DNA from: Georgenia soli
GTDB lineage: Bacteria; Actinomycetota; Actinomycetes; Actinomycetales; Actinomycetaceae
Length of the DNA stretch: 64,000 nt
Direction of reading: 5' to 3'
Assembly (NCBI RefSeq): GCF_002563695.1
Contig: NZ_PDJI01000004.1
Location: forward strand, 2,914,001 to 2,978,000
Positions 6,254 to 26,862 of the stretch are shown here, piece by piece. The stretch's first letter is position 1; each line of letters opens with the position of its first letter. The position numbers and the translations under genes were made by a program. The notes under the pieces are model-generated. The model ran no database searches and was not told the DNA's origin. It saw only the letters and a list, made by a program, of their open reading frames with translations.

Positions 6254-8818
6254 GTGAAACCGAGGTGTGTCTCCGCCTTCCTCGGTACCTTGATGATCCG
6301 GACGGAGGCCACCCCTGGGCCACCGCCGGTGGTACGAGGGGTGTGGGCCGTGGCGACAGCTCTGCGAGCGACGCGTTCTCGTCCACGTGTGCCCCGCGAC
6401 CTCGTCGTGGACGACGCGGTCCTCGAGATCCTCGCCGAGCAGGCACCGCTCACGGTGGTGCGCGGTCCCCGCGGGTACGGCAAGTCCGCCACGCTCAACG
6501 CCTGGCTCTCCGCCTCGCCGCCCGAGCACCAGGTGGTGCGGGTCGCCCTCTCTCGCGAGGCGAACGACGCCGAGGAGTTCTGGCGCATCCTCGACGGGGA
6601 GCTGACCCAGGCCGGCGTGCTGGACGGTGAGCCGGCCGCCGACCACCGAACCCGGGTCGTGCTCGCGCTGGCCCGGCGCTCGGAGCCGCTGACCGTCGTC
6701 ATCGACGACTACCACCACGCCGGCCGGCTCGAGACCGCGGCGGACATCGACGACGAGCTCGTGGAGCTGGTCCGCCAGAACGACCAGCTCTACCTCGTCG
6801 TCGCGAGCCGCACCACGCGGGCCATCGAGACCTCGGGCAGCCTCTCGGTCGACGTCGCCCTGGTCTCCCCGCGCGAGCTGAAGCTGCGCGCCCCCGAGGT
6901 GCTGGGGCTCGCCGGCCGGCTCGGTGTCCCGCTCAACGAGCGCGAGGCCGAGCGCCTCGCCACCGGTTTCGCGGGCTGGCCGGCCGCCATCCGTGACGTC
7001 CTGGTCCGGTCGCGCGGCGAGGGCGGGAAGATCAACCTCGCGCTGGCCGACGACTACATCGCCAGCATGGTGCGCGACCTTCGTCACGAGCAGGTGCGCA
7101 CGTTCCTCCTGCGCACCGCCGTCCCCGACTGCTTCGACGCCGAGCTGGCTGAGCTGGTCAGCCCCGGCGACTCCACGCTGACCATCCTGCGCAACGTCCG
7201 CGCGGCCGGGCTGCTGGGCGAGGAGATCGTCGGCGAGCGGCGGGTGTACTCCTACGCGCCCATCGTGCGGCAGGCGCTCGTGCGGATGCTCGCGGAGTCG
7301 CGCCCGGACGAGCTGCGCGAGGTGCACCGGGCGCTGATGACCCGCTGCCTGCACAAGCGCGACCACGTGGCGGCGCTCGTGCACGCCATCCACGCCGGAG
7401 CCTGGACGACGGCGGAGCAGGTGATGGAGGACGAGTGGCACCACCTCGTCACGCAGGAGCCGGCGGTCCTCATGGCGGCGGCGCGGCTGATCCCGCCCGA
7501 CATCGTCGCCGAGCGCCCGCGCTTCCAGGTCGCCCGGGACGAGGTGGACGGCGCCCTCACGACGGGGCGGCCGGGCCGGGACCTGATCTGGCCCACCGGT
7601 GACATCCGTGGACTGACGGCCGAGATCGGCCCGACGGCGCTGCGCAACGGCATGGGCGCCACCACGTTCGCCCTGCTGCAGTGGGGCGTCGCCGCCGTGC
7701 TCGCCGGGGACGAGTCCTCGGCGCTGTACGCCTTCGGCCGCGCCCGGACCGTCGCCCAGGAGGCCGGCGAGGGCCCGGCGGCCGTCGCGCTCGCGACGCT
7801 GGGTCTGGCGGGCACCCACGCGATCTACGGCGACGTCACCATCGCCGCCTCCTGGCTGAGGGACGAGTCGCTGCGCACCCCCGAGGAGAGGCCCCCGGAG
7901 CTGGCCGGGTACGTCGCCTACTGGGAGCGCCTCATCCGTGCCCTCGTCGCCCTCGACCGGCTCGACCCCGACGCCGGCCACCTCGTGGCCGCGATGCTCG
8001 AGCGCACGCGGCGTGACGAGATCTGGGGTCTGGAGGTCATGGTCCACGCCGTGAGCGCGGCGGTCTCCGGCGAGCCCGGTGACATCGCGAGGTGGGCCGC
8101 CAACGTCCGGGCCGCGCGCCACTACCTCCCGCAGGGGCGGATGGCCGAGATGGTGCTGCGCGCCACCGAGGTCGAGGTCCTCCTGGTGGGCGGGCTGTTC
8201 GACGACGCCCGGCACGTGGCCCGCAACCTCCCCGTCAACGCGGTGAGCATGTCCACCCACGCCCGCCTCGCGCTGGCGGGCGGGGAGTACCGGCAGGCGG
8301 CCACCCGCGCACGGGAGGCCCTCGAGCACCCGGCCCTCTCCCAGCGCTCGGTCATGGAGTGCCAGCTCGTCCTGGCCGCGGCGCACCACGCGCTGGGGGA
8401 GCGGGCGGCCGCTCGCGCCGCCTTCGCCGAGGCGGTGCGCACCGCGTACGCGTCGGGGCAGCGCCGGCCCCTGCTCGTGCTGCGCCACAGCGTGTTCACG
8501 GCGCTCGCCGCCGGGGACCAGCGCGTGCTGGGGCTGTGGCCCGAGGTGTACCGGCCCAGCGAGCGTGAGACGGCCGAGGAGCCGCGCGGCGGACTGACGG
8601 AGCTGCTCACCCCGCGTGAGCTGGAGGTCCTCCAGGCCCTGCACCAGCACACCGGCGCGGTGCCGATCGCCGAGGTGCTGGGCCTGTCGGTCAACACCGT
8701 CAAGTCGCACCTGCGCAGCGTCTACCACAAGCTCGGCGTGACGAACCGCTCCGGCGCCCTGCGCCGCGCGGACGAGCTCGACCGGGCGGGTCCCCCGGGG
8801 CACGTCGGGACGGGCTGA
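6254..8818 (+). CDS. MalT/LuxR-type ATP-binding transcriptional regulator, copy 1
   Basis: A large (up to 854 aa) STAND-type regulator. The Walker A motif GPRGYGKS is at residues 71-78 and a Walker-B-like LTVVIDDYHH near 155. A long Ala/Leu-rich helical-repeat region fills the middle, and a C-terminal LuxR/GerE helix-turn-helix covers about residues 788-850 (TPRELEVLQAL, SVNTVKSHLRSVYHKLGV). In this family ATP and an inducer drive oligomerisation and DNA binding; the inducer here is unknown. The first 29 residues are doubtful: GTG at 6341 is a plausible later start, and neither start has a clear ribosome-binding site. One base separates it from its paralogue. Confidence 0.85.
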   Translation: MKPRCVSAFLGTLMIRTEATPGPPPVVRGVWAVATALRATRSRPRVPRDLVVDDAVLEILAEQAPLTVVRGPRGYGKSATLNAWLSASPPEHQVVRVALSREANDAEEFWRILDGELTQAGVLDGEPAADHRTRVVLALARRSEPLTVVIDDYHHAGRLETAADIDDELVELVRQNDQLYLVVASRTTRAIETSGSLSVDVALVSPRELKLRAPEVLGLAGRLGVPLNEREAERLATGFAGWPAAIRDVLVRSRGEGGKINLALADDYIASMVRDLRHEQVRTFLLRTAVPDCFDAELAELVSPGDSTLTILRNVRAAGLLGEEIVGERRVYSYAPIVRQALVRMLAESRPDELREVHRALMTRCLHKRDHVAALVHAIHAGAWTTAEQVMEDEWHHLVTQEPAVLMAAARLIPPDIVAERPRFQVARDEVDGALTTGRPGRDLIWPTGDIRGLTAEIGPTALRNGMGATTFALLQWGVAAVLAGDESSALYAFGRARTVAQEAGEGPAAVALATLGLAGTHAIYGDVTIAASWLRDESLRTPEERPPELAGYVAYWERLIRALVALDRLDPDAGHLVAAMLERTRRDEIWGLEVMVHAVSAAVSGEPGDIARWAANVRAARHYLPQGRMAEMVLRATEVEVLLVGGLFDDARHVARNLPVNAVSMSTHARLALAGGEYRQAATRAREALEHPALSQRSVMECQLVLAAAHHALGERAAARAAFAEAVRTAYASGQRRPLLVLRHSVFTALAAGDQRVLGLWPEVYRPSERETAEEPRGGLTELLTPRELEVLQALHQHTGAVPIAEVLGLSVNTVKSHLRSVYHKLGVTNRSGALRRADELDRAGPPGHVGTG

Positions 8819-8819
8819 G

Positions 8820-11279
8820 ATGAGCGGGCCGTCCCACGGCGCGGAGCAGCACAGGGGGGACGGTCGCGGGCTACCTCGCGTGCCGGCCGCCTTCACACCG
8901 TCGCCGGCGGCCGAGCGGGCGCTGCAGAACCTCCCGCCGCTCGTCGTCCTCCAGGCGCCGCGGGGGTACGGGAAGACGACGACGGCGTCCGCCTGGCTGC
9001 GCCGGCCCGACCTGCCCGACCACGACCTGGTCTGGGTGGGGCTGCCGCCGCGCGCCGTCGGCCGCGACGAGTTCTGGTCGGAGCTGCACGACGCCGTCGT
9101 CCGTGCCGGGTACGACGACCCGGGCCCCGTGCTGGACGGCCGGGGGCTGGGACTGGCCGCGCAGAAGCGGTTCCGCCACCTGGTGATCGTCGTGGACAGC
9201 TTCGAGCGGCTGACGGACGAGAGCGTCGACGAGGAGCTCGTCGACCTCGCGCAGCGGCACGAGAACCTCCACCTGGTGCTCCTCACCCGGACCGTCCGCC
9301 CGGTGGTCTCCCTCGCCCGCGCGGCCGCGCCCGAGGCGGTGGTCCTCCAGCCGTCCGACTTCGTGCTGACCCCCGACCAGGTCCGCCAGCTGGGGGAGGA
9401 GCTGGGCGTGCCCGTCACCGAGAGGGCGGCCGCCGCGCTCTGCACGGGGCTCTCCGGCTGGCCCGGCCTCGTGCGGGTCGCGCTGCTGACCGCGAGCTTC
9501 GGCGAGGACGGGGAGCCCGTCGTCGACCTGTTCTCGATCGCCGACTACCTGCGCATCGTCCTGCAGGATCTCTCGGTGGACGGGGTGGACGCCGTGCTGA
9601 CCTCGCTCGCCGTGCCCGAGTCCTTCACGCCGGAGCTGGCCGAGCAGCTGGTCGGTGCGGAGAACATCGAGCAGATGGAGGGCATCCTCGTCCGGATGCG
9701 CCGCGCCGGGCTCCTCGTGACGAAGGGGGAGGGCACGTTCGCGTACCCCGTCATCATCCGGGACGCGGCGAACCTGCTGCTGCGCGAGGACGACCCGGCC
9801 CGGTACTGGCGGCTCAACGCCGACGTCGCCCGGCTGTGCCGCGGGGCGGGCCAGTTCCCCGAGGCGCTCGAGCACGCCATGCGCTCGCAGGACGCGGAGC
9901 TCGTCGCCGAGGTGGTGGAGGAGTCCTGGCAGGGTCTGCTCGCGGCCGACCGCGGCAAGCTGCGGGACGCGCTCGGCCACCTGCAGCCGGCGGCGCTGGC
10001 GGGCAGCCCCACGATGGTGGCGCTGCGCGACCACGTCGCCCCGCCGGAGCTGCCGCGCTGGTTCCTGGAGGCCGTACAGTCCGACCTGCCGGTGATCCAG
10101 CCCGGGAGCAGCACGCTGGCCATCGCGCACGACGAGGCCGACGAGCCCGGGGTGTCCGCGGCACTCCTCGAGCTCGCCCACGTCCTGCTCGGCGAGGCCG
10201 ACACCGTCGGCGCCGCGTACGCCTGCTACGACGCCGTGCGCCGGGCGACCGACGACGACGAGAGGCTTGTGCGCGAGGCGGGCGCCGGCGTCGCGCTGAC
10301 CACGGCGCTCCTGGGGCAGCTGCAGGGTGCCAGCCACTGGATGGACTGGGTGCTGGAACGCCCTGACCCGCCACCCGGGCCGCTCGAGACCGTGGCCCGC
10401 ATCGTGGTGCCGGCGTTCCTGCGGCTCGACCGGCTCGATGACGTGGACCTTCCCGAGCGGCCGCCCGACCTGCCCGAGTCGCACCAGTGGCTCGAGACCC
10501 TGGTGGTCTACGTCTGGGTGGGCCGGTCCCTCCACCTGGGCAGGCCCGCCGAGGTGCTCGGCGACGTGGAGCAGTACCGCGACCGCAACCGGCACCGGCC
10601 CGGGACGTGGCTCGGGCAGTCGCTGCTCTCCGCCGCGCTGATCGACCTGTGCATCGCCACCGACCAGCTCGCCCGCGGCCGGGAGATCGGGAACCTGGCC
10701 GGGCCGCGGCGCTTCGAGAGCGGCCTGCTGCGCGCCGCCCTGGCGCGTCTCGCCCTGTACTCCGGCGACGACCAGCTGGCGCTGGACCTGACGCGGGACG
10801 CGCCCTCGATCGCGCCCGTGCGGCCGCGGGTGGCGCTCAAGCTCAGCCTCGTGCGGACGGTCGCGGCGCACCGGACCGGCCAGCGCGCGCTCGCGCAGGA
10901 GGCGATGCACCTGGCGACGCGCATCGTCGAGCGCACCGGCATGCTCCGGCCTTTCCTGCTGGTGCCGCGCGCGGACCTGGAGAACGTGGCCGCAGGCCTG
11001 CCGCAGAGCAAGGCCCTCCTGGAGAAGCTCGACGAGGCCGCCGTCTCCGGGCCGTTCCCGGAGGCGGTCCGCGTCGAACCGCTCAGCGGCCGCGAGATCC
11101 ACGTGCTCCGCGAGCTGGCCACCGGCCGACCCGTCCCCATCATGGCGCGTCGCCTGTTCGTCTCCGAGAGCACCGTCAAGACCCAGGTGCGGAGCATCTA
11201 CCGCAAGCTGGGGGTGCACTCCCGCGCCGAGGCGCTGGAGCGTGGGCGCCTCCTCGGGCTTCTCCCGCCGCAGGACTGA
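8820..11279 (+). CDS. MalT/LuxR-type ATP-binding transcriptional regulator, copy 2
   Basis: An 819-aa paralogue of the preceding gene with the same plan: Walker A APRGYGKT at residues 46-53, a Walker-B-like HLVIVVDSFERL near 117-128, a long helical middle, and a C-terminal LuxR helix-turn-helix (SGREIHVLRELATG, SESTVKTQVRSIYRKLGVHSRAEAL). The ATG begins 1 nt after the upstream stop, so the two are co-translated and may work as a pair or hetero-oligomer. Its position just before the TasA/SipW-type exported genes makes it a candidate regulator of them; that link is inferred from neighbourhood only. Confidence 0.85.
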   Translation: MSGPSHGAEQHRGDGRGLPRVPAAFTPSPAAERALQNLPPLVVLQAPRGYGKTTTASAWLRRPDLPDHDLVWVGLPPRAVGRDEFWSELHDAVVRAGYDDPGPVLDGRGLGLAAQKRFRHLVIVVDSFERLTDESVDEELVDLAQRHENLHLVLLTRTVRPVVSLARAAAPEAVVLQPSDFVLTPDQVRQLGEELGVPVTERAAAALCTGLSGWPGLVRVALLTASFGEDGEPVVDLFSIADYLRIVLQDLSVDGVDAVLTSLAVPESFTPELAEQLVGAENIEQMEGILVRMRRAGLLVTKGEGTFAYPVIIRDAANLLLREDDPARYWRLNADVARLCRGAGQFPEALEHAMRSQDAELVAEVVEESWQGLLAADRGKLRDALGHLQPAALAGSPTMVALRDHVAPPELPRWFLEAVQSDLPVIQPGSSTLAIAHDEADEPGVSAALLELAHVLLGEADTVGAAYACYDAVRRATDDDERLVREAGAGVALTTALLGQLQGASHWMDWVLERPDPPPGPLETVARIVVPAFLRLDRLDDVDLPERPPDLPESHQWLETLVVYVWVGRSLHLGRPAEVLGDVEQYRDRNRHRPGTWLGQSLLSAALIDLCIATDQLARGREIGNLAGPRRFESGLLRAALARLALYSGDDQLALDLTRDAPSIAPVRPRVALKLSLVRTVAAHRTGQRALAQEAMHLATRIVERTGMLRPFLLVPRADLENVAAGLPQSKALLEKLDEAAVSGPFPEAVRVEPLSGREIHVLRELATGRPVPIMARRLFVSESTVKTQVRSIYRKLGVHSRAEALERGRLLGLLPPQD

Positions 11280-11863
11280 GGCACAAGCTTCGTCAGGCGC
11301 GCACCCGCACCTGAGCGCTGCCTGGCAGGCGGCTGTACGGAGGGTGAGGAACCGTTTTCACCCTCGCATCCCCTTCCGGTCGCGCTGACAACTTTCGCTC
11401 TTCGCGGTGTCCTGGATGTACGGCTTCCGGGCAGCACGGGGAGCCGCGGCCGACGGCGGTGACGCGGCAATGGCGGCGCGTCACCACCGCCGGACTCACC
11501 GAGACTGCGGGGTCGCCCACCTTCCCCCGGGATGGGCGGCCCCGCTCTCGTGCGCCTGGGCGCGGCTGCTCGGCCGGCCTTCTCCCCGTGCCTCGACCCA
11601 CGCAACCTCAGGGTGAGCCGGGCACGCCGCCGGGAGGGTGAGCGCCGGACGGCCGTCCCGCCCGGACGTCACCACCAGCCCACCCTCGGTTGACGCCCGG
11701 GGTGTCCGAAAGCCACCCCCTGTCAGTCATCCGGCTCTCGTCCGTAAAGCTCCCTGTGCGGTGACGGCCCCGCTGGTGCGATGGACGCAGTCGAGGTCGA
11801 CACCGCGGGCCCCTTCCGGGCGCCCGAGAGCCGGCCACCGAGTCCTCCCGGGGAGTGAGCTTC
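11280..11863 (+). other. 584-bp non-coding region upstream of the surface-protein cassette
   Basis: No supported gene is seen. It contains a hairpin at 11340-11365 (8-bp stem GAGGGTGA/TCACCCTC, 10-nt loop), probably ending the regulator transcript. Near 11700 there is a shorter GGGGTG/CACCCC hairpin with a GAAA-containing loop, next to a TTGACG hexamer at about 11690. The length and folding suggest a long 5' leader or operator region for the cassette starting at 11864. No known riboswitch consensus was recognised. Confidence 0.5.
11340..11365 (+). terminator. Hairpin downstream of the tandem regulators
   Basis: Arms 11340-11347 and 11358-11365 form a perfect 8-bp stem with a 10-nt loop containing GTTT, 60 nt after the stop of the second regulator. 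It is modest in stability compared with the other terminators in the window. Confidence 0.4.
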
Positions 11864-14458
11864 ATGCGTCCAGCACCAGGACGACGTCGCACCAGGGCCC
11901 TCTCCCGGACGCGCGCCTCCGTGGCCGGGCTGCTGAGCGCGGCGCTCCTGTGCACCGGCAGCGCCGCGGTGGCCGCGGCGGAGACGAGCGATCCCACGAC
12001 GACGGCCACGGAGACGACGGCGGAGCTGGCAAGTGCGGCCGTCGAGCCCTCCGGCCTCCTCTGCCCGGACGGGACCACGCCCGACGCCGAGGCGCTCGCC
12101 GTCGCGACGCCGGAAGAGATCGAGGCGGCGCTCGCGGCCGGTGAACCGATTCCTGGCTGCGACGGGACTGCCGCCGCCGTCGAAGGCGCGCCGGACGCCC
12201 CAGCTGACGCCGTCGAGCAGCCGGTGTCGAACGTGGAGCCGGCAACCGGCGAGACCACGGAACCGACGCGTGACTCCACAGACCCCGCTGAGAACGCCCC
12301 GGCGGCCGAGACACCCGCGAGCCCCGGTGCCGCCACCCTGGCGGGTGCGCTGGAGATCACCCCCATGGCCGCCGTCGCCTCCGGTGCCGCGCTGCGCGGC
12401 GGCTTCGAGGTGGACGGGAACGTCACGCGCGGCGACCTCACGGGCAGCACCGGCGACGACTGGGACAACGTGTCCTTCGACTCCGCGATCGACGGGCTGA
12501 AGGACACGACGCAGTTCAGCGGCAACAACACGAAGGAGGACGCCGCGCCCTCCGGCTGGCAGCCCGGCACCGGCACCGCGAGCGACCAGGCCGACATCGA
12601 CCGGATCTGGGCGCACGACCGCGTGGACGGCGGCACGCAGTGGCTCTATCTGGGCTTCTCCCGGGACACCGGGTCCGGTTCCATCGGCTACTCGCTCGAG
12701 CTGAACCAGAGGAGCAACGTCACCAACGGCGGCGGCGTGAGCGTGCCGAACCGTACGGCCGGTGACCTGCGCGTCGGCTTCACCCAGTCCGGGAACGGGC
12801 CGCTCTCCCTGGTCGAGGTCGCACGATGGTCCGGCACCGGGACGGCCGGGTCCTGGTCGACCGTGGGGTTCTCGAACGCGGACATCCTCGGGTTCTCCAA
12901 CGTCGCCAACCTCGCGGCGACGGGGCCGTTCCCGGCCATGGCGACGAGCACGTTCGTCGAGGCTGCTTTCAATCTCTCCCAGCTGGACCAGGCCACGACC
13001 TGCACTCGGGCGGGGTTCGTCCAGGCCAACCTGCGCAGCCGACAGTCGCAGTCCATGACGTCGCAGCTCAAGGACTACGCCGTCGTCCCGGTCAGCATCC
13101 CGCCGCGGTGCGCCGACCTCACGATCAGGAAGCAGGACGAGGCGGGCGAGCTCCTGACGGGTGCGGAGTTCACCGTCAGTCCCAGCCCCTACGGCGGGAC
13201 CTCCGACCTCGTGGTGGTCGACGGCGGGGCGAACGACTCCGACGGGACCGCGGACGGCGTCATCTCCCTGCGGACCAGCGTGTTCGGTCAGTACTCGGTG
13301 ACGGAGACGAAGGCTCCGAAGGGTTACCTCCTCGCGAAACCCAGAAGCCAGAGCTGGACCGCGGCCGCGTACCAGCAGAAGACGCTCACCTTCGTCGACC
13401 CGCTCGGGACCGCGAGGTGGACCAAGATCGACGAGACCGGTGCGCCCGTAGCAGGGGCGACCTTCACCCTGGCGCCGACCGGCAGGGACGACGACGCGCT
13501 GGACCTGCTGGGTGCGGACTACAGGCTGGTCGTCACCGACAACGGTGCGAACGACACCGATCCGATCGCCGGGAGCCTCAAGGTCGAGGGCCTTTACACC
13601 GGCAGGTGGACGCTCACCGAGACGGCCGTGCCCGCGGGCTACGACCCGCAGCGGCTCCCGGCCCCGATCTCCTTCACGATCGGTGACGAGACGCCGAACT
13701 CCGGCGCCCGCCCGGCCCACGACCTCGGCCCGCTGGTGAACCACCGGCTTACGACGGTGACGATCGTCAAGACCGTCACGCCGCGGCTGACGCCCGCCGG
13801 GGTGCGTCCTCCGGACGAGCCGGGCGCGGGCTGGCAGTTCCACGCGGAAGCCGCGGCCGACGTCACCGTCCAGGGCTCCGGGCTGACCGGCTCCGACGGC
13901 AGGACAGTCTTCTCCCTCTCGATCCCCGCCGGCAGGACCACCGTCCCGCTCACGGTCGATGAGGAGATGAAGCCGGGATTCACGATCGCGCCGCAGGACG
14001 GCAGCAACGCCGTCTGCACCGCGAACGGCGAGGCCGTCGCCGTGACCAACGGTGACCCGGCGGCAGACCCCTACGGGTTCGAGGTGGCGGTGCCTGCCGG
14101 CTCTGCGGTCACCTGCTACGTCGACAACCGCGAGCTCGAGGCGGGCGTCGACATCGTCAAGCGTGCCTGGCTGGTCCCGCCGGGGCAGGAGCCGACCGAC
14201 GGCGCAGAGCTAACGAGTGGCCGTTATCAGGAGCTCGTCTTCGACCCCGAGGGCATGACCCGTCCCGACGTCGTGTCCGGCACGACCGTCTGGTGGAGCT
14301 ACACGGTCGAGAACACCGGTGAGCTGAGCCTCGACGACCTGGTGGTGACGGACGACGTCGTCGCCCCCATGCCCGACGACCCGATCTGCACGATCCCAAG
14401 ACTCGGTGCCGGTGGCTCGTTCACCTGCATCGGAAACGGTCCCGTCACGAAGCAGTGA
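11864..14458 (+). CDS. Secreted multidomain SpaA-like surface protein
   Basis: An 864-aa exported protein. An Arg-rich N-terminus and hydrophobic segment (about residues 18-40, ending in AVAAAE) form a signal peptide. A Thr/Ala/Pro-rich linker runs to about 165 and a beta-rich head to about 420. Two SpaA/Cna-B prealbumin-like domains follow, with the paired Lys and Glu expected for isopeptide bonds (LTIRKQD with SVTETKAPKGY; WTKIDE with TLTETAVPAGY). Next come a third beta domain and the start of a DUF11-like domain. No LPxTG motif or membrane anchor is present and the last domain looks cut short. The ATG at 11864 has GGGGAG at 11850-11855; a GTG at 11855 is less likely. Confidence 0.8.
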   Translation: MRPAPGRRRTRALSRTRASVAGLLSAALLCTGSAAVAAAETSDPTTTATETTAELASAAVEPSGLLCPDGTTPDAEALAVATPEEIEAALAAGEPIPGCDGTAAAVEGAPDAPADAVEQPVSNVEPATGETTEPTRDSTDPAENAPAAETPASPGAATLAGALEITPMAAVASGAALRGGFEVDGNVTRGDLTGSTGDDWDNVSFDSAIDGLKDTTQFSGNNTKEDAAPSGWQPGTGTASDQADIDRIWAHDRVDGGTQWLYLGFSRDTGSGSIGYSLELNQRSNVTNGGGVSVPNRTAGDLRVGFTQSGNGPLSLVEVARWSGTGTAGSWSTVGFSNADILGFSNVANLAATGPFPAMATSTFVEAAFNLSQLDQATTCTRAGFVQANLRSRQSQSMTSQLKDYAVVPVSIPPRCADLTIRKQDEAGELLTGAEFTVSPSPYGGTSDLVVVDGGANDSDGTADGVISLRTSVFGQYSVTETKAPKGYLLAKPRSQSWTAAAYQQKTLTFVDPLGTARWTKIDETGAPVAGATFTLAPTGRDDDALDLLGADYRLVVTDNGANDTDPIAGSLKVEGLYTGRWTLTETAVPAGYDPQRLPAPISFTIGDETPNSGARPAHDLGPLVNHRLTTVTIVKTVTPRLTPAGVRPPDEPGAGWQFHAEAAADVTVQGSGLTGSDGRTVFSLSIPAGRTTVPLTVDEEMKPGFTIAPQDGSNAVCTANGEAVAVTNGDPAADPYGFEVAVPAGSAVTCYVDNRELEAGVDIVKRAWLVPPGQEPTDGAELTSGRYQELVFDPEGMTRPDVVSGTTVWWSYTVENTGELSLDDLVVTDDVVAPMPDDPICTIPRLGAGGSFTCIGNGPVTKQ

Positions 14459-14462
14459 CGGG
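14441..14462 (+). terminator. Hairpin overlapping the surface-protein stop codon
   Basis: A perfect 8-bp inverted repeat CCCGTCAC/GTGACGGG with a 6-nt loop. The TGA stop (14456-14458) lies inside the right arm. It precedes the first TasA-like gene by 55 nt and may act as an attenuator that makes the downstream genes differ in level from the large surface protein. Confidence 0.5.
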
Positions 14463-14516
14463 CTGACCCCCCCTGGCCCGCTGGAAGCAGCAGCCATCCC
14501 CCCGAAAGGAAAGACG

Positions 14517-15188
14517 ATGAACAACAAGACCAAGGGCGCTCTGGCGGGCGTCGCCGGGGTCGCGATCCTCGCGGGCGGCACCACGTTCGCCCTCTGGAGC
14601 GACAGTGACAAGGTCGACGGAGGCGAGATCACCTCCGGCAACCTCGACGTTGCTGCTCTCGGCGGAGACTGGTACGACACCTCAGCCGACCGTGCAGATA
14701 GGGACACTACGGTGCCGTTCTCCGGTGTCTCTGCGCACAAGATCACCAGCATCGGCTCGTATCGAGTGGTCCCGGAGGACACCCTCCAGATGGTGCAGGG
14801 CCTCGACATCGGCCTGGAGGGTGACAACCTCCAGGCTTCGCTGAAGGTCGTCGTGCCAGCTGCACTGGACGCGAACGACGGTGTCGAACTGAGCTACGAA
14901 GTTTTCCGTGACGGAGTCGTCGTGCAGCCCAGCAAGGCCCTGGGTAGTGCCTTCGACATGCGGATCCAGGCCGGCCAGAGTGGCCAGGATCAGGGGGACC
15001 CCGATCCCGGAGTTCTCGTCATCGACGAGATCGACACCGACGGTGTCGCGGATCTGGGCGTCGTCATCACCGCGAAGTTCCTGGACCAGGACGACCAGGA
15101 CCTCGTCACGACGACTCTGGCGGACCTTGCCGACATCACCGTCGAGCTCAAGCAGGTTCGCGACGGCTCTGGCTTCAAGACCAACTGA
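14517..15188 (+). CDS. TasA/camelysin-like exported protein with SipW-type signal peptide, copy 1
   Basis: A 223-aa exported protein. The N-terminus has basic residues, a hydrophobic core and the box FALWSD at residues 24-29, the pattern of actinobacterial alternate-type signal peptides cleaved by SipW-like peptidases. The mature part is beta-rich and acidic. In Bacillus, TasA proteins with related signals form matrix fibres; fibre formation here is inference. The ATG is chosen from AAAGGAAAG 4-12 nt upstream. The peptidase gene follows 68 bp downstream. Confidence 0.8.
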   Translation: MNNKTKGALAGVAGVAILAGGTTFALWSDSDKVDGGEITSGNLDVAALGGDWYDTSADRADRDTTVPFSGVSAHKITSIGSYRVVPEDTLQMVQGLDIGLEGDNLQASLKVVVPAALDANDGVELSYEVFRDGVVVQPSKALGSAFDMRIQAGQSGQDQGDPDPGVLVIDEIDTDGVADLGVVITAKFLDQDDQDLVTTTLADLADITVELKQVRDGSGFKTN

Positions 15189-15256
15189 CCCACCCCCCAT
15201 CCGTGGAGGGGCGGACGCACGGCCGCCCCTCCACCACCACAGGGAAGGAGAGTGAC

Positions 15257-15856
15257 ATGAGCGCCAGGACCAAGGACCAGAGCTGGCTCGCCGGCCTGAC
15301 CTCCGTCGTGACGGCGACCGTCCTGGTCGTCGCGGTCGCGCTCGCCGTCGCTCTCGCGCTCGTCCCGCGTCTGCTGGGCGGGGGAGCGCTGACCGTGCTC
15401 ACCGGTTCGATGGAGCCGACCCTCTCGCCGGGCGACATGGTCGTCGTCCGGCCGGTGGAGGCCGGCGACGTGCGCGTCGGTGACGTGGTCACCTTCCAGC
15501 CCGTCTCCGACGACCCGACCCTGATCACGCACCGCGTGGTCGCCAAGCAGGTCGGGTCGTCGGGGACCACCTTCGTCACCCGCGGCGACGCCAACGGGGC
15601 GGACGACGCCCCGATCGTCGGCGACCAGATCATGGGCGAGGTCGTCTACCACGTCCCGTACGTGGGCCACCTGGCGGTCTGGGTCGGTGGCAGCAAGCAG
15701 GGGATCGTCGTCGCCACCGGCGCCGCGCTCCTGGCCTACGCCGCCCTCATGTTCCTGCGCCCCCAGCGCCGCTCCGCCGTCGAGGACGACGACGCAGCCG
15801 AGCTCGGCGCCCCGGCCGCCACTCCCGTCGCCGCCGAGCAAGGAGTCTCGTCATGA
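15257..15856 (+). CDS. sipW: SipW-like signal peptidase I (ER-type Ser/His)
   Basis: A 199-aa membrane serine protease. One membrane segment (about residues 12-40) is followed by the catalytic box TGSMEPTLSPGD with Ser51. Where typical bacterial enzymes have a catalytic Lys, the motif THRVV carries His92, as in SipW and eukaryotic/archaeal signal peptidases. A second hydrophobic segment lies near 160-180, before an acidic tail. It sits among three genes with SipW-type signal peptides, so it very probably processes them. GGAAGGAG lies upstream of the ATG, and its stop overlaps the next gene (ATGA). Confidence 0.88.
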   Translation: MSARTKDQSWLAGLTSVVTATVLVVAVALAVALALVPRLLGGGALTVLTGSMEPTLSPGDMVVVRPVEAGDVRVGDVVTFQPVSDDPTLITHRVVAKQVGSSGTTFVTRGDANGADDAPIVGDQIMGEVVYHVPYVGHLAVWVGGSKQGIVVATGAALLAYAALMFLRPQRRSAVEDDDAAELGAPAATPVAAEQGVSS

Positions 15857-16458
15857 CCGCCACGTCGCGGCTCGCGATCACCGGCACGGCGCTGGTCGTC
15901 GCGGTCGGTGCGGGCGCCGCCACCTACGCCCTCTGGACGGCCGACGGCGACGCCCCCGCCGGCGTCATCACCGCCGGTGACCTCGACATCGCCCTGAGGC
16001 CCGACAGCTTCACCTGGCAGGAGACCTCGCCCGACGTCGCCGCACAGCAGTCGGGCACGACCCGGGACTCCTTCGCCGAGTTCGTCGCCATGAGCGGCGA
16101 CACCTTCACGGTCAGCCAGGGCTTCACCACCACCCTCGAGGGCGACAACATGCTCGGGGTGCTCAGCGTCAGCTGGGGCACGCAGCCCCAGCTGCCCGCC
16201 GGGGTCTCCGCCAGCTACCGGGTGCTCGACGCGGCCGACGCCGAGGTGGCCTCGGCCCGCCTCGGCCAGCGGGTCGAGGTCCGCGACCTGCCCGTCGGCG
16301 AGGAGAGCTGGACGGTCGAGGTGGACCTGACCTTCGCGGAGGACAAGCCGGATCGCTACACCACCTTCTCGGGGACCGACCCGGTCGAGATCACCGACCT
16401 CGGCACGATCGTCGTCGACCTCGACCAGGTGCGCACCGGAACGGGGTTCGAGCAATGA
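15853..16458 (+). CDS. TasA-like exported protein with SipW-type signal peptide, copy 2
   Basis: A 201-aa exported protein. Its signal peptide ends in the box YALWTAD (residues 25-31), like the neighbouring copies, and is followed by a beta-rich acidic domain. It resembles copy 1 in motifs such as TAGDLDIAL and the segment LEGDNMLGVLSV (copy 1: LEGDNLQASLKV), so the two are diverged paralogues. The ATG overlaps the peptidase stop and the gene's own stop overlaps copy 3, indicating tight co-translation. Confidence 0.8.
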   Translation: MTATSRLAITGTALVVAVGAGAATYALWTADGDAPAGVITAGDLDIALRPDSFTWQETSPDVAAQQSGTTRDSFAEFVAMSGDTFTVSQGFTTTLEGDNMLGVLSVSWGTQPQLPAGVSASYRVLDAADAEVASARLGQRVEVRDLPVGEESWTVEVDLTFAEDKPDRYTTFSGTDPVEITDLGTIVVDLDQVRTGTGFEQ

Positions 16459-17222
16459 ACGCCTTCGGAACACCTCGACGCGCACTCGTCGGCGTGGCAG
16501 CCCTCGCTGTCGCCCTCGGAGCGGGCACGGGCACCGCCCTCGCGCTGTGGGACGACACCGAACAGTTCAGCGCAGAGGTCGGCTCCGGCATGGTCGGGTT
16601 CGCCATCGGCAAGCCCGGCGCAGCGGACCGCACCGTCGCCGCCGGTCCGGCCGACCGGTTGGCCTTTCCCCTCGGCCCGGACGAGGCCACGACGCTGCTC
16701 GACACCGGCGAGGTCGCCGTCGGGATCCAGGTCGATGCGCGCGCGGACGGCAACAAGGGGCTGAGCTACGCACTCGACCTGCCGGACCTTCCGGCTGACT
16801 CGATTTTCGGCAGCTCGACCGTCCGGGTCTACCGCGTCGACTCAGCCGCAGCCTGCTCCGCCCATGGCATTACCGGCCGCCCGCCCGCGGCCACGTACAC
16901 GCCGGCCGACCCTGACGGCGACGGCACCTTCGAGCCGGGCCCGGCCGGCTGGGACCGCACGTGGGCCAGCTCGACTCCCGTGCGCGCGGACTACGACGAC
17001 GACTGGACGGCGACGGAGTACTGGTGCGTCGTCGCCACCCTCGGCGACCTGCCGGACGAGGGCTCGTACACCAACACGGCCACCGTGTCGGTCGAGGTGG
17101 ACGGGGACACCTACACCGCTGAGGACACCTGGCGTGCCGACGTCACCACGGCCGCCGACCCTGCGGACGAGCCGACGCACACGATCAACTTCACCCACAG
17201 CACGACCCGGCCGGGGGAGTGA
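16455..17222 (+). CDS. TasA-like exported protein with SipW-type signal peptide, copy 3
   Basis: A 255-aa exported protein. It begins with a basic and hydrophobic signal region ending in ALALWDD (residues 28-34), which again matches the SipW-type cleavage pattern. The mature region is Asp/Thr-rich and predicted beta, with two cysteines (SAAACSAHG and EYWCVVA) that could form a disulfide outside the cell. It is more divergent from copies 1 and 2 than they are from each other. The start overlaps the previous stop (ATGA). Confidence 0.75.
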   Translation: MNAFGTPRRALVGVAALAVALGAGTGTALALWDDTEQFSAEVGSGMVGFAIGKPGAADRTVAAGPADRLAFPLGPDEATTLLDTGEVAVGIQVDARADGNKGLSYALDLPDLPADSIFGSSTVRVYRVDSAAACSAHGITGRPPAATYTPADPDGDGTFEPGPAGWDRTWASSTPVRADYDDDWTATEYWCVVATLGDLPDEGSYTNTATVSVEVDGDTYTAEDTWRADVTTAADPADEPTHTINFTHSTTRPGE

Positions 17223-17227
17223 GCGCA

Positions 17228-18025
17228 ATGACGACCAAGACGTGGTGGCGCACCTCGTTGACGGCGCTGGTGCTGGCGGCCGCGGTGGCCACGCCCGCCG
17301 GCACCGCCCTGGCCGCGCCCGCCGGCGGCGACGCCAGGGGAGTGGACGCGATCTCGCTGTCCTGGGACGGCTCCGAGTACGCGGCCTCGACCAGCGAGAG
17401 CTTCCTCGGTGTGCCGGTGTCCGTGCCGGGGGACACCGCCGCACGCACCCTCACCGTGCGCAACGACGGCCCCCGTCAGGGCGTGCTGACGGCGGAGATC
17501 GTCAACGTCGAGCTGCTCGACCCGGAAGCCCCGGACGAGCACCACAACCCCGACCACGAGGACCCCGACGGCAGCGGCGCCCCCTTCGGCGACCCGTACG
17601 CGGGTGCCGGCGACCAGGGTGACTTCTACGACGACGTCACCGTGGGCTGGGAGACCGCAGACGGCGCCGGTTCCGCCTCGTTCAGCGCTCTCGACACCGA
17701 CGGCGGACGCCAGATCGGGCAGGTGGCGCTCGGCAGGGGCGAGACGACCGAGGTGACGATCAGCTACGAGTTCCCCTACGACGCGACCTCGGGGAACCGC
17801 GCCAACGTGCCACCCCGGCTGGCCTCCTTCGACGTGCTGCTGACCATCCGGGGCGACGACGCAGCCGCCCCGCCCGCCAGGCCCGGCAGGCCGGGCCGCC
17901 CGTCGCTGTCCACGACCGGCGCGGACGTCCTCTGGCTTGGTGCCGCCGCCGTGCTCGCCGTCGTGACCGGGAACGAGCTGCGCCGACGGGCGGGCCGCAC
18001 CAGACAGCGTGACGCCACCGCGTGA
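17228..18025 (+). CDS. Exported protein with sortase-like C-terminal anchor
   Basis: A 265-aa protein of unknown function closing the cassette. A conventional signal peptide ends near ALAAPAGG. The central beta-rich domain contains a His/Asp-rich stretch (DEHHNPDHEDPDG) that could bind metal. The C-terminus has a Pro/Arg linker, LSTTG, a hydrophobic segment (VLWLGAAAVLAVVTG) and Arg residues. This is the layout of a sortase signal with Ser in place of Pro in LPxTG, though a simple membrane anchor is also possible. The ATG at 17228 is preferred (GGGGGAG 8 nt upstream); GTG at 17219 overlaps the previous gene. Confidence 0.7.
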   Translation: MTTKTWWRTSLTALVLAAAVATPAGTALAAPAGGDARGVDAISLSWDGSEYAASTSESFLGVPVSVPGDTAARTLTVRNDGPRQGVLTAEIVNVELLDPEAPDEHHNPDHEDPDGSGAPFGDPYAGAGDQGDFYDDVTVGWETADGAGSASFSALDTDGGRQIGQVALGRGETTEVTISYEFPYDATSGNRANVPPRLASFDVLLTIRGDDAAAPPARPGRPGRPSLSTTGADVLWLGAAAVLAVVTGNELRRRAGRTRQRDATA

Positions 18026-18060: not shown

Positions 18061-18102
18061 CACGGGTCCGCCCTCCCTTCCCCCGGGGAGGGCGGGCCCG
18101 TG
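18061..18102 (+). terminator. Strong hairpin ending the TasA/SipW-type cassette
   Basis: A 17-bp stem (18061-18077 with 18086-18102, one G-U pair) and an 8-nt loop, 35 nt after the last cassette gene. This is among the strongest hairpins in the window and cleanly separates the accessory block from infA. Confidence 0.75.
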
Positions 18103-18323: not shown

Positions 18324-18545
18324 ATGGCGAAGAAGGACGGCGTCATCGAGATCGAGGGCAGTGTTGTCGAGGCTCTTCCCAACGCGATGTTCCGCGTCGA
18401 GCTGAGCAACGGGCACAAGGTTCTCGCCCACATCTCGGGCAAGATGCGCCAGCACTACATCCGGATCCTCCCTGAGGACCGTGTGGTCGTCGAGCTGAGC
18501 CCGTACGACCTCACCCGGGGTCGCATCGTCTACCGCTACAAGTAA
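18324..18545 (+). CDS. infA: Translation initiation factor IF-1
   Basis: IF-1 (73 aa) is an OB-fold protein that occupies the A site during initiation. The start [27 protein letters not shown] and the end GRIVYRYK match the family over its full length. GGGAG lies 4 nt upstream of the ATG. It heads the infA-rpmJ-rpsM-rpsK unit. Confidence 0.97.
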
Positions 18546-23196: not shown

Positions 23197-23664
23197 TCGC
23201 GGAGGCCCGCTCGCCCCGGTCCCCGCGACCAGGAGGGCCTCCACCGCGTCGGCGAGCTCGGCCAGAGGCCGGCGGGCGTCCAGCTCGAGCGTGGCACCCC
23301 GTCGGAGCAGGGGCTCGACGGTGTCGACGTGAAACCGGATCTCGGCCCGCTGGGCCGCGGTCGTGCCGTACGGGTTGCCGGTGCGCGTGGCCACCCGCCG
23401 GAGCAGGACGTCCAACGGTGCGCTGAGGAGCACGACGTGGTCGAAGCGGTCGTAGAACCGGCCCTGGTTCTCCACCGTGCCGGAGACGACGAGGTCGCGG
23501 TGCGAGGCCAGCAGCAGGCCCACCCTTGCCTCGTCCCACCTGCCGTCCGGCAGGACCCAGCCGTCGTAGTCCGTGTCGACGGTCACGTGCCCGCGGACCT
23601 TCAGCTCGTCGAGCAGGGTGGACTTCCCCGTCCCGGACATCCCCGTCAGCAGCACGCGCGCCAT
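23194..23664 (-). CDS. Small P-loop kinase/ATPase of unknown substrate
   Basis: A 156-aa single-domain protein with Walker A GMSGTGKST at residues 8-16, followed by VTVDTDYDGW (a nucleoside-kinase-like Asp) and a LID-like segment RVATRTGNPYG. The size and layout resemble shikimate/gluconate-type kinases and uncharacterised AAA_33-like ATPases; no substrate can be assigned. Its ATG begins 3 nt after the selB stop, so it is probably co-transcribed with selAB. A link to selenium metabolism is unproven. Confidence 0.7.
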   Translation of the reverse strand: MARVLLTGMSGTGKSTLLDELKVRGHVTVDTDYDGWVLPDGRWDEARVGLLLASHRDLVVSGTVENQGRFYDRFDHVVLLSAPLDVLLRRVATRTGNPYGTTAAQRAEIRFHVDTVEPLLRRGATLELDARRPLAELADAVEALLVAGTGASGPPR

Positions 23665-23667
23665 GGG

Positions 23668-25533
23668 TCACCCGCGACGCGCGGCGGGGGTGACCTCACG
23701 CCGGTCGTCGGGCAGGCGCCGGGTGAGTCCCTGCCGGTCGAGGTGGTCCAGCAGGGGCAGCACGACGCGGCGCGAGGTGCCGAGCCGGACCCGCGCCTGG
23801 CTGGTGGTGAAGGGCTGCGGCAGCTCCGCGAGCCAGGCCGCGGCACGGCCGGCGGCGTCCGAGGGGAGCACGATGCCGGGCGCGGGCCGCAGCAGCCGTC
23901 CGGCGCGGGCGGCGGCGGCGAGGGCCCGCTCGTCGAGGCGCAGCTCACGCAGCCGGTCGGCCGTGGGGGCCGCGAACGGGGCGTCGGCGAGCTCGGCGTC
24001 CAGCGTCTCCAGCGCGGCGGCGAGCGCCGCGGGCAGCCCGTCGCCACGGCCCGCGAGCGTCACCCGGCCGTTGCGGAGCGTCAGCGGTGGGCGCAGGGCG
24101 GCCCTGAGCAGGCGCTCGGGCACACCGAGGCGGGCGGCGAGCGCGCCGGGCGGCACGCCAGGGTCGAGGGGATGGGCGGCGTCGTGCTCGCCGACGAGGC
24201 GGGCGGCGTCGGCCCGGGCCCGCTCGGCACGCTCGGTCGACATCACCAGGCCCGCGTCGACGACGCCGTGCTCGGCGGCGCCGGAGGTGGGCACACCGAT
24301 GCGGCGCAGCAGCGCGAGGTCGGCGACCCCGCCGCGCCGGGCGAGCTCGCGCGGGAGGCGGGGTGCGCCGTCGGCGTCCGCGAGCGCCTGGGCCCGCCGC
24401 GCCCCGGCACCGCGGCGGGTGAGGGCGGGCGGGGCGGGATCCAGGACGACGACGCCCCACAGGGCCCGGCTGCCCGGGTCGCGGAGGAGGGCGCGGTCGC
24501 CGATCCGCAGGGGGAGCGGGCGGCGCAGCCGCAACCGGGCGAGCTCCCCGCCGAGCGGGCGGTGGTGCACCTCCACCGACGCGGCGCCGACGTGCAGCAG
24601 GGGCCGCTGCGGCGGGGCGGCGGACGACTCGGGCGTCGGGGAGGAGATGACGTCTCGGGGAGGAGTTGACGTCTCGGCGAGAGGGAGAGGGGGGAGGGGG
24701 TGGTGGGTGGCGGCGTCGCCGACCCGCCGCAGGCGCACGTCCACGACGTCGGTGACGTGCCAGGCGTCGGGGGTGACCAGCACGGAGCCCCGCTCCAGCC
24801 CCTCGTCGTCGCCGGCGAGGCCCAGGGCCACGCGGGCGACGCCGACCGCCTCCGGCACGGCACGGCCGAGCGACTGGACCGCCCGGACGCGGACGGTCCC
24901 GCCGTCGTGCGTGAGCCGGTCCCCGGGCGCGACGCGGCCCGCGGGCAGCGTGCCGGTGACCACGGTGCCCGTCCCACGCACCGTGAAGCGGCGGTCCACC
25001 CACAGCCGCACGTCCGCCTCCCGCTCCGGCGGCGGGACCTGGGCCAGGACCTCGGCGAGGGCGGCGGTCAGCTCGGGCAGCCCCGCGCCGGTGACCGCGC
25101 TGACGGGGACGACGCGGGCGCCGCGCAGCGAGGTGCGGTCCACCTGCTCGCGGGCGCGCGCCGCCGCGGGGCCGGGGTCGGCGAGGTCGGCCCGCGTGAC
25201 GGCGACGACGCCGCGGGAGACCCCGAGCCCGTCCAGGGCGGCGAGGTGCTCGGCCGTCTGCGGCATCCACGGGTCGTCGGCGGCGACCACCAGCAGCGCC
25301 ACCGGCACCGGTCCGACGCCGGCGAGCATCGTGGGGACGAACCGCTCGTGGCCCGGGACGTCGACGAACGCGACGTCGCCGGCGCCGGGCAGGGCGGTCC
25401 AGCAGAACCCGAGCTCGATGGTCAGGCCGCGCCGGTGCTCCTCGGGCAGCCGGTCCGGGTCGGTGCCCGTCAGGGCGCGGACGAGGGTGGACTTGCCGTG
25501 GTCCACGTGCCCCGCGGTGGCGACGACGTGCAC
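23668..25533 (-). CDS. selB: Selenocysteine-specific elongation factor SelB
   Basis: SelB (621 aa) brings Sec-tRNA to UGA codons followed by a SECIS hairpin. The N-terminal GTPase has AGHVDHGKST (residues 7-16), the switch region RRGLTIELGF and DVPGHERFV. EF-Tu-like beta domains follow, and the C-terminal half has the winged-helix repeats that bind SECIS RNA. A Pro/Ser-rich linker near residues 288-310 (TSTPPRDVISSPTPESS) is encoded by a 19-bp tandem repeat and looks lineage-specific. The GTG start lies 3 nt after the selA stop. Confidence 0.93.
   Translation of the reverse strand: MHVVATAGHVDHGKSTLVRALTGTDPDRLPEEHRRGLTIELGFCWTALPGAGDVAFVDVPGHERFVPTMLAGVGPVPVALLVVAADDPWMPQTAEHLAALDGLGVSRGVVAVTRADLADPGPAAARAREQVDRTSLRGARVVPVSAVTGAGLPELTAALAEVLAQVPPPEREADVRLWVDRRFTVRGTGTVVTGTLPAGRVAPGDRLTHDGGTVRVRAVQSLGRAVPEAVGVARVALGLAGDDEGLERGSVLVTPDAWHVTDVVDVRLRRVGDAATHHPLPPLPLAETSTPPRDVISSPTPESSAAPPQRPLLHVGAASVEVHHRPLGGELARLRLRRPLPLRIGDRALLRDPGSRALWGVVVLDPAPPALTRRGAGARRAQALADADGAPRLPRELARRGGVADLALLRRIGVPTSGAAEHGVVDAGLVMSTERAERARADAARLVGEHDAAHPLDPGVPPGALAARLGVPERLLRAALRPPLTLRNGRVTLAGRGDGLPAALAAALETLDAELADAPFAAPTADRLRELRLDERALAAAARAGRLLRPAPGIVLPSDAAGRAAAWLAELPQPFTTSQARVRLGTSRRVVLPLLDHLDRQGLTRRLPDDRREVTPAARRG
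24636..24673 (+). repeat. 19-bp tandem direct repeat inside selB
   Basis: Two adjacent 19-bp copies (24636-24654 and 24655-24673) differ at a single base, and a partial third copy (TCGG) follows. They encode the Pro/Ser-rich interdomain linker of SelB. The unit is not a multiple of 3, so the two copies are read in different frames. Confidence 0.85.
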
Positions 25534-25536
25534 GAC

Positions 25537-26862
25537 TCAGCCCCCCAGCGCCGCCGCGGCCGCGCGAACCGCGGCGACCAGCTCCTCGTCCTGCTCGGGC
25601 GGGACGGTGCGCAGGTCCAGCAGCAGCCGGTCGTGCTCGACCCTCCCGACGACCGCGGGCGTGCCCCGCCGCAGCATCGTCGCGAACCGCACCGGCAGGG
25701 TGACCGCGGCGCTGGGCAGCTCGACGCCCGGGGCGCCGCCGCCGCCCACGGCGGCGCGGCTCTCCTCGGCGCCTGCCGCGACGGCGTCGTCGGCCAGCCG
25801 GGCGGCGAGGGCCCGGGCACGGCCCAGGAGCTCTGCCGGCTCGGCCTCGAGCGCGGCCCTCACGGGCGGGGTGGGGCCGGTCAGGGTCGCCTCGAGGGCG
25901 GCGAGGGTGAGCTTGTCGACGCGGAGGGCCCGGGCGAACGGGTGGCGGCGCAGCGCCTGCACGAGGTCCGCCCGCCCCAGGAGCAGTCCCGCCTGTGGCC
26001 CGCCGAGCAGCTTGTCGCCCGACGCGGTCACCAGGGCGGCGCCCGCGCGCAGGGTGGTGGTGGCGTCCGGCTCGTCCGGCAGCCGCGGGTGCGGCGCCAG
26101 CAGGCCGGAGCCGATGTCGGCGACGACGGGCACCGGCAGGCGCGACAGCTCGCCGACGGGCACCGAGGAGGTGAAGCCCGAGACGAGGAAGTTGGACGGG
26201 TGCACCTTCAGCACGAAGGCGGTGTCGTCGTCGACGGCCGCGGCGTAGTCCTCCAGGCGGACCCGGTTGGTGGTCCCGACCTCGCGCAGGGTGGCGCCCA
26301 CGGACTCCAGCAGCTCCGGGATGCGGAAGCCGTCGCCGATCTCGACCATCTCCCCGCGGGCCAGGACCACGTTCCGGCCGGCGGCCAGCCCCAGCGTGAC
26401 CAGCGCAAGGGCGGCGGCGCCGTTGTTGACCACGTGCACGCCGCCGGCGTCGGGGACCGCGGCGGCCAGCGCCGCGAGCGCGCCGGAGCCCCGGGGGCCG
26501 CGCCGGCCGGTGGCCAGGTCCAGCTCCACGTCGGTGGGCCCGGCGGCGAGGGTGAGCGCCTCGAGCGCCGCGGCGGACAGCGGCGCCCGGCCGAGGTTGG
26601 TGTGGACGACGACGCCCGTCGCGTTGACCACCCGGCGCAGCGTGGTCGCCGCCTCGGGCAGGGCGGCCACCGCCGCGTCGGCGACCTCCTCCGGGGCGAG
26701 CTCCCCGGCGCGGCAGCGCTGCTGCGCCGTCGTCACCGCGTCCTTCACGAGCCGGCGCCCGAGCCGGGCGACGGCGGCGACCAGGCGCGGGTCGGCCAGC
26801 ACGGCGTCCGTGCGCGGGGTGGCGCGGCGGAGGTCCGCCGCGGCGTCGGTCGTCTTCGGCAC
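25537..26862 (-). CDS. selA: L-seryl-tRNA(Sec) selenium transferase
   Basis: SelA (441 aa) is a PLP enzyme that converts Ser-tRNA-Sec to Sec-tRNA-Sec using selenophosphate. Visible motifs are VVNATGVVVHTNLGRAPLS, the PLP loop with SGDKLLGGPQAG (Lys284) and VKVHPSNF-type residues. The length is typical (about 460 aa). The GTG at 26862 is chosen because AGGAGGG lies 6 nt upstream. It starts 16 bp after the tRNA-Sec gene on the same strand, so selC-selA-selB form one unit. Confidence 0.94.
   Translation of the reverse strand: MPKTTDAAADLRRATPRTDAVLADPRLVAAVARLGRRLVKDAVTTAQQRCRAGELAPEEVADAAVAALPEAATTLRRVVNATGVVVHTNLGRAPLSAAALEALTLAAGPTDVELDLATGRRGPRGSGALAALAAAVPDAGGVHVVNNGAAALALVTLGLAAGRNVVLARGEMVEIGDGFRIPELLESVGATLREVGTTNRVRLEDYAAAVDDDTAFVLKVHPSNFLVSGFTSSVPVGELSRLPVPVVADIGSGLLAPHPRLPDEPDATTTLRAGAALVTASGDKLLGGPQAGLLLGRADLVQALRRHPFARALRVDKLTLAALEATLTGPTPPVRAALEAEPAELLGRARALAARLADDAVAAGAEESRAAVGGGGAPGVELPSAAVTLPVRFATMLRRGTPAVVGRVEHDRLLLDLRTVPPEQDEELVAAVRAAAAALGG

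Follow-up and report, generated by a model that had tools for sequence, protein, structure and literature searches.

A conserved TasA/SipW-type cassette between map and infA in Georgenia: a proposed wall-anchored fibre with a strand-deficient adhesin

What do the eight genes do that separate map from infA in Georgenia soli? They lie in a 64,000-nucleotide stretch of contig NZ_PDJI01000004.1 (positions 2,914,001 to 2,978,000 of the forward strand; the window), part of the 4.27-Mb genome of this Georgenia-group actinobacterium. Between the end of map (6077) and the start of infA (about 18324) there are two LuxR/STAND regulators, followed by genes for an adhesin, TasA1, a SipW-like signal peptidase, TasA2, TasA3 and a protein with a sorting signal. 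We consider it somewhat more likely than not that the six genes from 11864 to 18025 (the cassette) encode a TasA-type fibre anchored to the wall, in which a fibre subunit, most likely TasA3, completes the tip adhesin in trans. TasA/SipW-type fibres are of a known kind. Possibly new are the conserved strand-deficient end of the adhesin, the base with its sorting signal and a possible split isopeptide joint. Among the literature matches listed no paper describes the cassette itself or an adhesin with a naturally split isopeptide domain, which is not proof of absence.

The end of the adhesin carries the argument. DUF7507, renamed CLIPPER_2, is described as typically seven-stranded with a likely isopeptide bond, with a Lys, an Asp and an Asn near the end of the domain (PMC12617251). 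The last domain of the adhesin belongs to the same family and has the Lys and the Asp at the expected places, but unlike the described domain it stops before the Asn-bearing part. In the window it covers positions 18-76 of 105 (21.7 bits, below the 27-bit cut-off), which is not a complete seven-strand domain. All 28 recognised cassette adhesins (24 in alignments, a further three, L187-L189, in alignment A8, and L199) end around position 77 of 105, and their tails measure from a few to about 20 residues. In the 12 cassette genomes that we searched, all 12 cassette adhesins end at DUF7507 position 69-78, compared to none of the 85 other DUF7507 matches. Of these others, 79 reach at least position 93; the remaining six end earlier, but no stop codon follows within the next 117 residues or more.

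The stump has kept the isopeptide Asp in 28 of 28 adhesins and the Lys in 25 (absent in L064, L173 and L199), and an NTAT-type Asn strand was recognised in none of the 28. The end is kept although the last two domains are 24-38% identical to those of the window (75% in Georgenia sp. EYE_87, G001, the closest relative in the sets searched). The heads on the same stump vary: SpaA in the window and in EYE_87, VWA in several cassettes (below the Pfam cut-off in four cases of families f1 and f13, above it in Leucobacter) and CshA_NR2 in Cellulomonas uda. In the C. uda adhesin the penultimate DUF7507-like domain is nearly complete and the terminal one is cut.

The companions of the adhesin are conserved as well. 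The order adhesin, tasA1, sipW, tasA2, tasA3, base is common to families f1, f13 and f8 and to genomes of Nesterenkonia, Paeniglutamicibacter, Brevibacterium, Leucobacter, Frigoribacterium, Enteractinococcus, Cellulomonas and one Microbacterium. Order or content deviates in f19, f20, Arthrobacter castelli and Microbacterium sp. UFMG61. Family f20 has short proteins upstream of its TasA genes (L063:13328-14428, L175:3695-5083), which may be diverged adhesins. In C. uda the cassette (L196:4852-13503) has ribosomal protein genes (read by eye) before it and secY shortly after it. This site differs from the map-infA interval and apparently reflects a separate insertion into the same large gene cluster.

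How could these products form a fibre? The SipW-like peptidase would cleave the SipW-type signal peptides of exported TasA1, TasA2 and TasA3. Cleavage would free N-terminal arms, and the subunits would then be joined, like those of Bacillus TasA, by donor-strand exchange. The best Foldseek match of the TasA1 model is the TasA fibre 8aur, albeit a weak one, the VIA list for TasA1 contains several donor-strand subunits, and residues 1-38 of the model are of low confidence. The product of the last gene would be the base, attached to the wall by sortase. The adhesin would be the end cap, a variable adhesive head on a DUF7507 isopeptide domain. Because this domain is without its last part, the adhesin should be able to accept strands from a fibre subunit; with no arm to pass on, it would accept strands without donating one. 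The fibre would thus have the accepting adhesin as its tip, a shaft processed by SipW and a base anchored to the wall. TasA3 is the most likely donor to the adhesin, and its Asn could bond with the adhesin's Lys.

The case for TasA3 comes from profile comparison. The adhesin profile matches DUF7507 columns 2-81 (probability 98%, E 7e-15) and TasA3 matches columns 86-108 (23 columns, probability 33%, E 5e-4 for a single comparison). Hence the two proteins together tile DUF7507. The profiles of TasA1, TasA2 and the base gave no match to columns 86-108, and 100 column shuffles of TasA3 reached at most 17.6, compared to 29.5 for the real profile. The TasA3 segment follows the pattern GxYxNTATVxAxxPxGxxVxxxDxW. 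The Asn of this segment is shared by 23 of the 25 TasA3 proteins in the alignment; C. uda has an Asp, and the other exception, L173, is also among the three loci whose adhesin has no Lys. No Lys column of TasA3 reaches 85% (one that we inspected has 16 of 25). In their isopeptide-type residues the adhesin and TasA3 are complementary.

A smaller alignment of seven TasA3 sequences matches the same columns at 6% probability. Two points weigh against TasA3 as the partner: the match to DUF7507 is short, and the Asn also occurs in seven of the ten cassettes without a recognised Lys-bearing adhesin.

That the joint is covalent is a tentative and rather doubtful proposal. In this case the cassette would encode a natural split isopeptide domain, the Lys/Asp half on the adhesin and the Asn strand pair on TasA3, joined on secretion by a ligase-free intermolecular bond. 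That such a bond welds an interchangeable adhesive head to a TasA-type fibre is just as speculative. If true, the joint would be the natural equivalent of SpyTag/SpyCatcher and, for Gram-positive bacteria, a covalent form of the contact between FimH and its shaft. New tag/catcher pairs could then be drawn from nature, and adhesin and fibre would be locked together in a new way. Like engineered SpyTag/SpyCatcher, the pair would have Lys and acid on one partner, the adhesin, and a candidate Asn-bearing strand on the other. Unlike SpyTag/SpyCatcher, it would be natural, its partners are two products of one operon and its bond is putative.

Alternatively, TasA1 (or TasA2) could complete the adhesin with its N-terminal arm as an ordinary, non-covalent donor strand, and the Asn of TasA3 would be structural in TasA3 only. 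This is a serious possibility, although we would not call it probable. The tasA1 gene directly follows the adhesin gene in f1/f13/f8-type cassettes and in most of the named ones. The TasA1 arm is conserved (GGxITxGNLDV), and Bacillus TasA and TapA are described as donating N-terminal strands (PMC9674648, PMC10151520). However, donation by TasA1 leaves two observations unexplained: the conservation of Lys and Asp in the stump, and the match of TasA3 to DUF7507 columns that the adhesin has lost.

The stump could also be an atrophied, non-functional domain inherited by descent. The adhesin would then dock nowhere specifically and be either set free or retained in the matrix. A single ancestral stop codon could be inherited, and a truncated domain need not fold. 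We consider this unlikely, since nearly the same end is found in sequences that are 24-38% identical while the heads were replaced, and since the isopeptide-type residues were retained. Least likely, and by some distance improbable, are amyloid or loose matrix polymers in place of an ordered fibre: TasA was earlier reported as amyloid (PMC9674648) and the fibre here is predicted from genes, but the cryo-EM structure of TasA is a donor-strand assembly (PMC9674648), and dedicated base and end proteins are conserved.

If the tip-shaft-base fibre completed by TasA3 is real, TasA-type fibres gain a tip, a shaft and a base. It would show how a TasA-type fibre carries interchangeable adhesive heads and would explain how the fibre holds on to the actinobacterial wall. 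The tip adhesins of type 1 and P pili, FimH and PapG, consist of an N-terminal head and a C-terminal strand-deficient Ig-like domain, and only accept strands. The cassette adhesin has the same layout and would follow the same logic. It differs in domain family, in Gram type and in that about two strands are missing; none of the eight proteins scanned matches chaperone or usher genes. Sortase-built SpaA-type pili have SpaA/VWA heads and an LxxTG-type base, as does the cassette. Unlike in these pili, the shaft subunits carry no sorting signals and the cassette has no sortase gene.

Like Bacillus tapA-sipW-tasA and B. cereus sipW-tasA-calY, the cassette places a SipW-type peptidase beside SipW-dependent secreted subunits. 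An N-terminal arm is a further likeness to Bacillus TasA fibres, and the TasA fibre is the top, if weak, fold match. The cassette differs from them by three subunits that fall below or outside PF12389 (TasA/camelysin), by the base and by the large variable adhesin with its truncated isopeptide domain. Its neighbours are of LuxR type, whereas B. subtilis uses SinR control (PMC9674648). TapA has a complete Ig domain that donates and cannot accept (PMC10151520). The adhesin would be its mirror image, accepting and not donating.

Table 1. Features of the map-infA interval (window coordinates).
Feature	Position	Strand	Evidence and remarks
Regulator 1, LuxR (GerE) with STAND/AAA-like NTPase part, ~820 aa	6350..8818	+	Profile matches, relatives
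Regulator 2, LuxR/STAND paralogue, ~820 aa	8820..11279	+	28% identical to regulator 1
Hairpin between regulators and cassette	11507..11545	+	Nearly identical in EYE_87; z -4.1
Tip-adhesin candidate	11864..14458	+	Sec-type signal, variable head, ends inside DUF7507, no anchor
Truncated C-terminal DUF7507/CLIPPER_2	14135..14455	+	Lys codon 14159-14161, Asp codon 14351-14353, no Asn-bearing strand
TasA1	14517..15188	+	SipW-type signal peptide, extended N-terminal arm, predicted beta-sandwich
SipW-like ER/archaeal-type Ser/His signal peptidase I	15257..15856	+	TIGR02228
TasA2, SipW-type secreted subunit	15853..16458	+	Model score below cut-off
TasA3, secreted subunit	16455..17222	+	SipW-type signal below cut-off; C-terminal part resembles DUF7507 end
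TasA3 stretch matching DUF7507 columns 86-108	17055..17144	+	Conserved Asn, codon 17073-17075
Base/anchor candidate	17219..18025	+	Sec-type signal, conserved PGD/NDGP core, sorting-type signal 17906-18022
Strong hairpin downstream of cassette, 17-nt arms	18061..18102	+	Not conserved in EYE_87
infA	18324..18545	+	Downstream border of insertion

All eight genes are long open frames in the window and all eight occur in relatives, so the gene inventory given in a preliminary description of this DNA stands. Its coordinates are also correct with one exception: the start of regulator 1 is probably near 6350, not 6254, because similarity to relatives begins there or shortly after. The SpaA-like secreted protein proposed at 11864-14458 matches PF17802 (SpaA) with 73 bits. 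Overlaps of 4 bp, reported for the genes around 15.2-17.2 kb, are present at three junctions: sipW/tasA2, tasA2/tasA3 and tasA3/last gene. The proposed Ser/His signal peptidase passes TIGR02228 (94.3 vs 51.85 bits) with both residues readable, and falls short of the Bacillus SipW equivalog NF046067 (73.9 vs 190 bits). Three proteins with FALW-type signal peptides had been named. For TasA1 the models agree (TIGR04089, 83.2 vs 60 bits; TIGR04088, 30.6 vs 19); TasA2 (TIGR04089, 46.4 vs 60) and TasA3 (TIGR04088, 15.1 vs 19) remain below the cut-offs, and a similar signal can be read in both. The PF12389 cut-off of 22.5 bits is not reached, with TasA1 coming closest (14.8 bits).

The last protein, described as sortase-signal-like, indeed has an LxxTG-like motif, a hydrophobic stretch and a basic tail, recognised by eye in all nine complete homologues of alignment A1 (a tenth is cut by a contig end). 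In the window the motif is LSTTG, which scores 17.5 vs 65 bits with the NCBIfam LAXTG model. The genome encodes five sortases. The conserved six-gene unit and the TasA-fibre match of TasA1 thus support the idea of a dedicated surface system with its own processing enzyme, and we infer that its products form the fibre. The preliminary description does not mention the strand-deficient end of the adhesin, the likely role of the last protein as a base or the likeness of TasA3 to the missing strands. The genome carries two further SipW genes (G000:C4:508531-509708, L001 and L077; G000:C4:1437006, L066). One of them adjoins a protein that passes PF12389, a more classical TasA/camelysin locus.

Do the two regulators belong to the cassette? 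Both have a GerE helix-turn-helix; their AAA matches are weak and below the cut-off, and Walker A motifs are directly readable. The label MalT-like, given to them earlier, fits loosely: like MalT-like LAL regulators they combine an AAA/STAND-like part with GerE in about 820 aa, but they score 128.5 and 98.9 bits with the MalT model NF003420, far below its 537-bit cut-off, and form a tandem pair in the map-infA slot.

The regulators can occur apart from the cassette. The pair stands just before infA in all eight congeners, and the cassette accompanies it in one, EYE_87. SipW loci fetched from G002-G008 gave no match to tasA3 or the base (for G003 this covers all SipW loci but one). With regulator 2 as query, pairs are found in the same eight congeners and also in other genera and one other family. 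Sixteen regulator loci were fetched. Fifteen of them include map, with the pair immediately downstream or separated from it by one or two genes; the G002 contig begins downstream of map. A search of 396 genomes of the order finds regulator 1 in 24 (E up to 1e-100), the base gene in 29 (E up to 1e-8) and both in nine. The dedicated two-protein switch that the preliminary description thought possible is largely unsupported: conserved synteny, whose absence it had named as a refutation, is mostly lacking for such a pair, because seven of eight congeners carry it without the cassette.

The regulators may then be unlinked to the cassette, acting on unrelated genes in a slot that merely tolerates insertions. 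We put this not far below an even chance. Besides the congeners and the small overlap among the 396 genomes, it is favoured by the slots that hold the pair alone (G004, G005, G006, G101 and G116, where the cassette of G116 is located elsewhere) and by the conserved hairpin between pair and cassette, a candidate terminator of the regulator unit. Several blocks in 11330-11560, upstream of the adhesin gene, are nearly identical in EYE_87 and could be operators or a leader.

What else shares the slot, however, argues for a link. In G003, G007, G008, G015 and G084 one gene separates map from regulator 1. It encodes a polyprenyl sugar transferase (PF02397) in the scanned G007 and G008, and by its similar C-terminus also in the other three. 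Between regulator 2 and infA, G048 has a polysaccharide cluster (matches include PF13440, PF02397 and PF04932), a 1892-aa LPPTG-ending protein and then the cassette (L093, L102, L100). In G010 a 2482-aa IPPTG-ending protein occupies the slot and the cassette lies elsewhere. In G016 and G071 the cassette is on the same contig, about 26-36 kb from the pair. Since the identified slot-sharing genes are matrix genes, the pair plausibly controls extracellular-matrix genes, here probably including the cassette.

Other LuxR-type proteins adjoin cassettes elsewhere. Of 27 cassette stretches, which represent 25 distinct loci, 11 contain LuxR-domain proteins of at least 600 aa, compared to none of 19 comparison loci of 377 kb, with a profile that is partly circular; those of L098 and L099 are response-regulator hybrids, not STAND proteins. 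In Nesterenkonia, Brevibacterium, Leucobacter and Frigoribacterium the regulator gene points to the cassette and either overlaps it or leaves a gap of less than 160 bp, and in Enteractinococcus it lies 181 bp upstream. The regulators of these five genera form one LuxR-STAND family (36-48% identical over nearly their full length) that is distant from the Georgenia pair. Hence the association of regulator and cassette is recurrent, but with different regulators. Regulation by the neighbours, as first suggested, thus loses the synteny with this pair and retains the matrix genes in the slot and the second family in five genera. The recurrent LuxR-type neighbours are a concrete starting point for studying matrix regulation in these actinobacteria.

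The two response-regulator/LuxR hybrids (L098:15270-18041 and L099:1111-3003) lie near cassettes outside the map slot, and their C-terminal parts are related to each other. Further downstream in the window, positions 23500-26500 have a G+C content of about 79-81%, above that of the surroundings.

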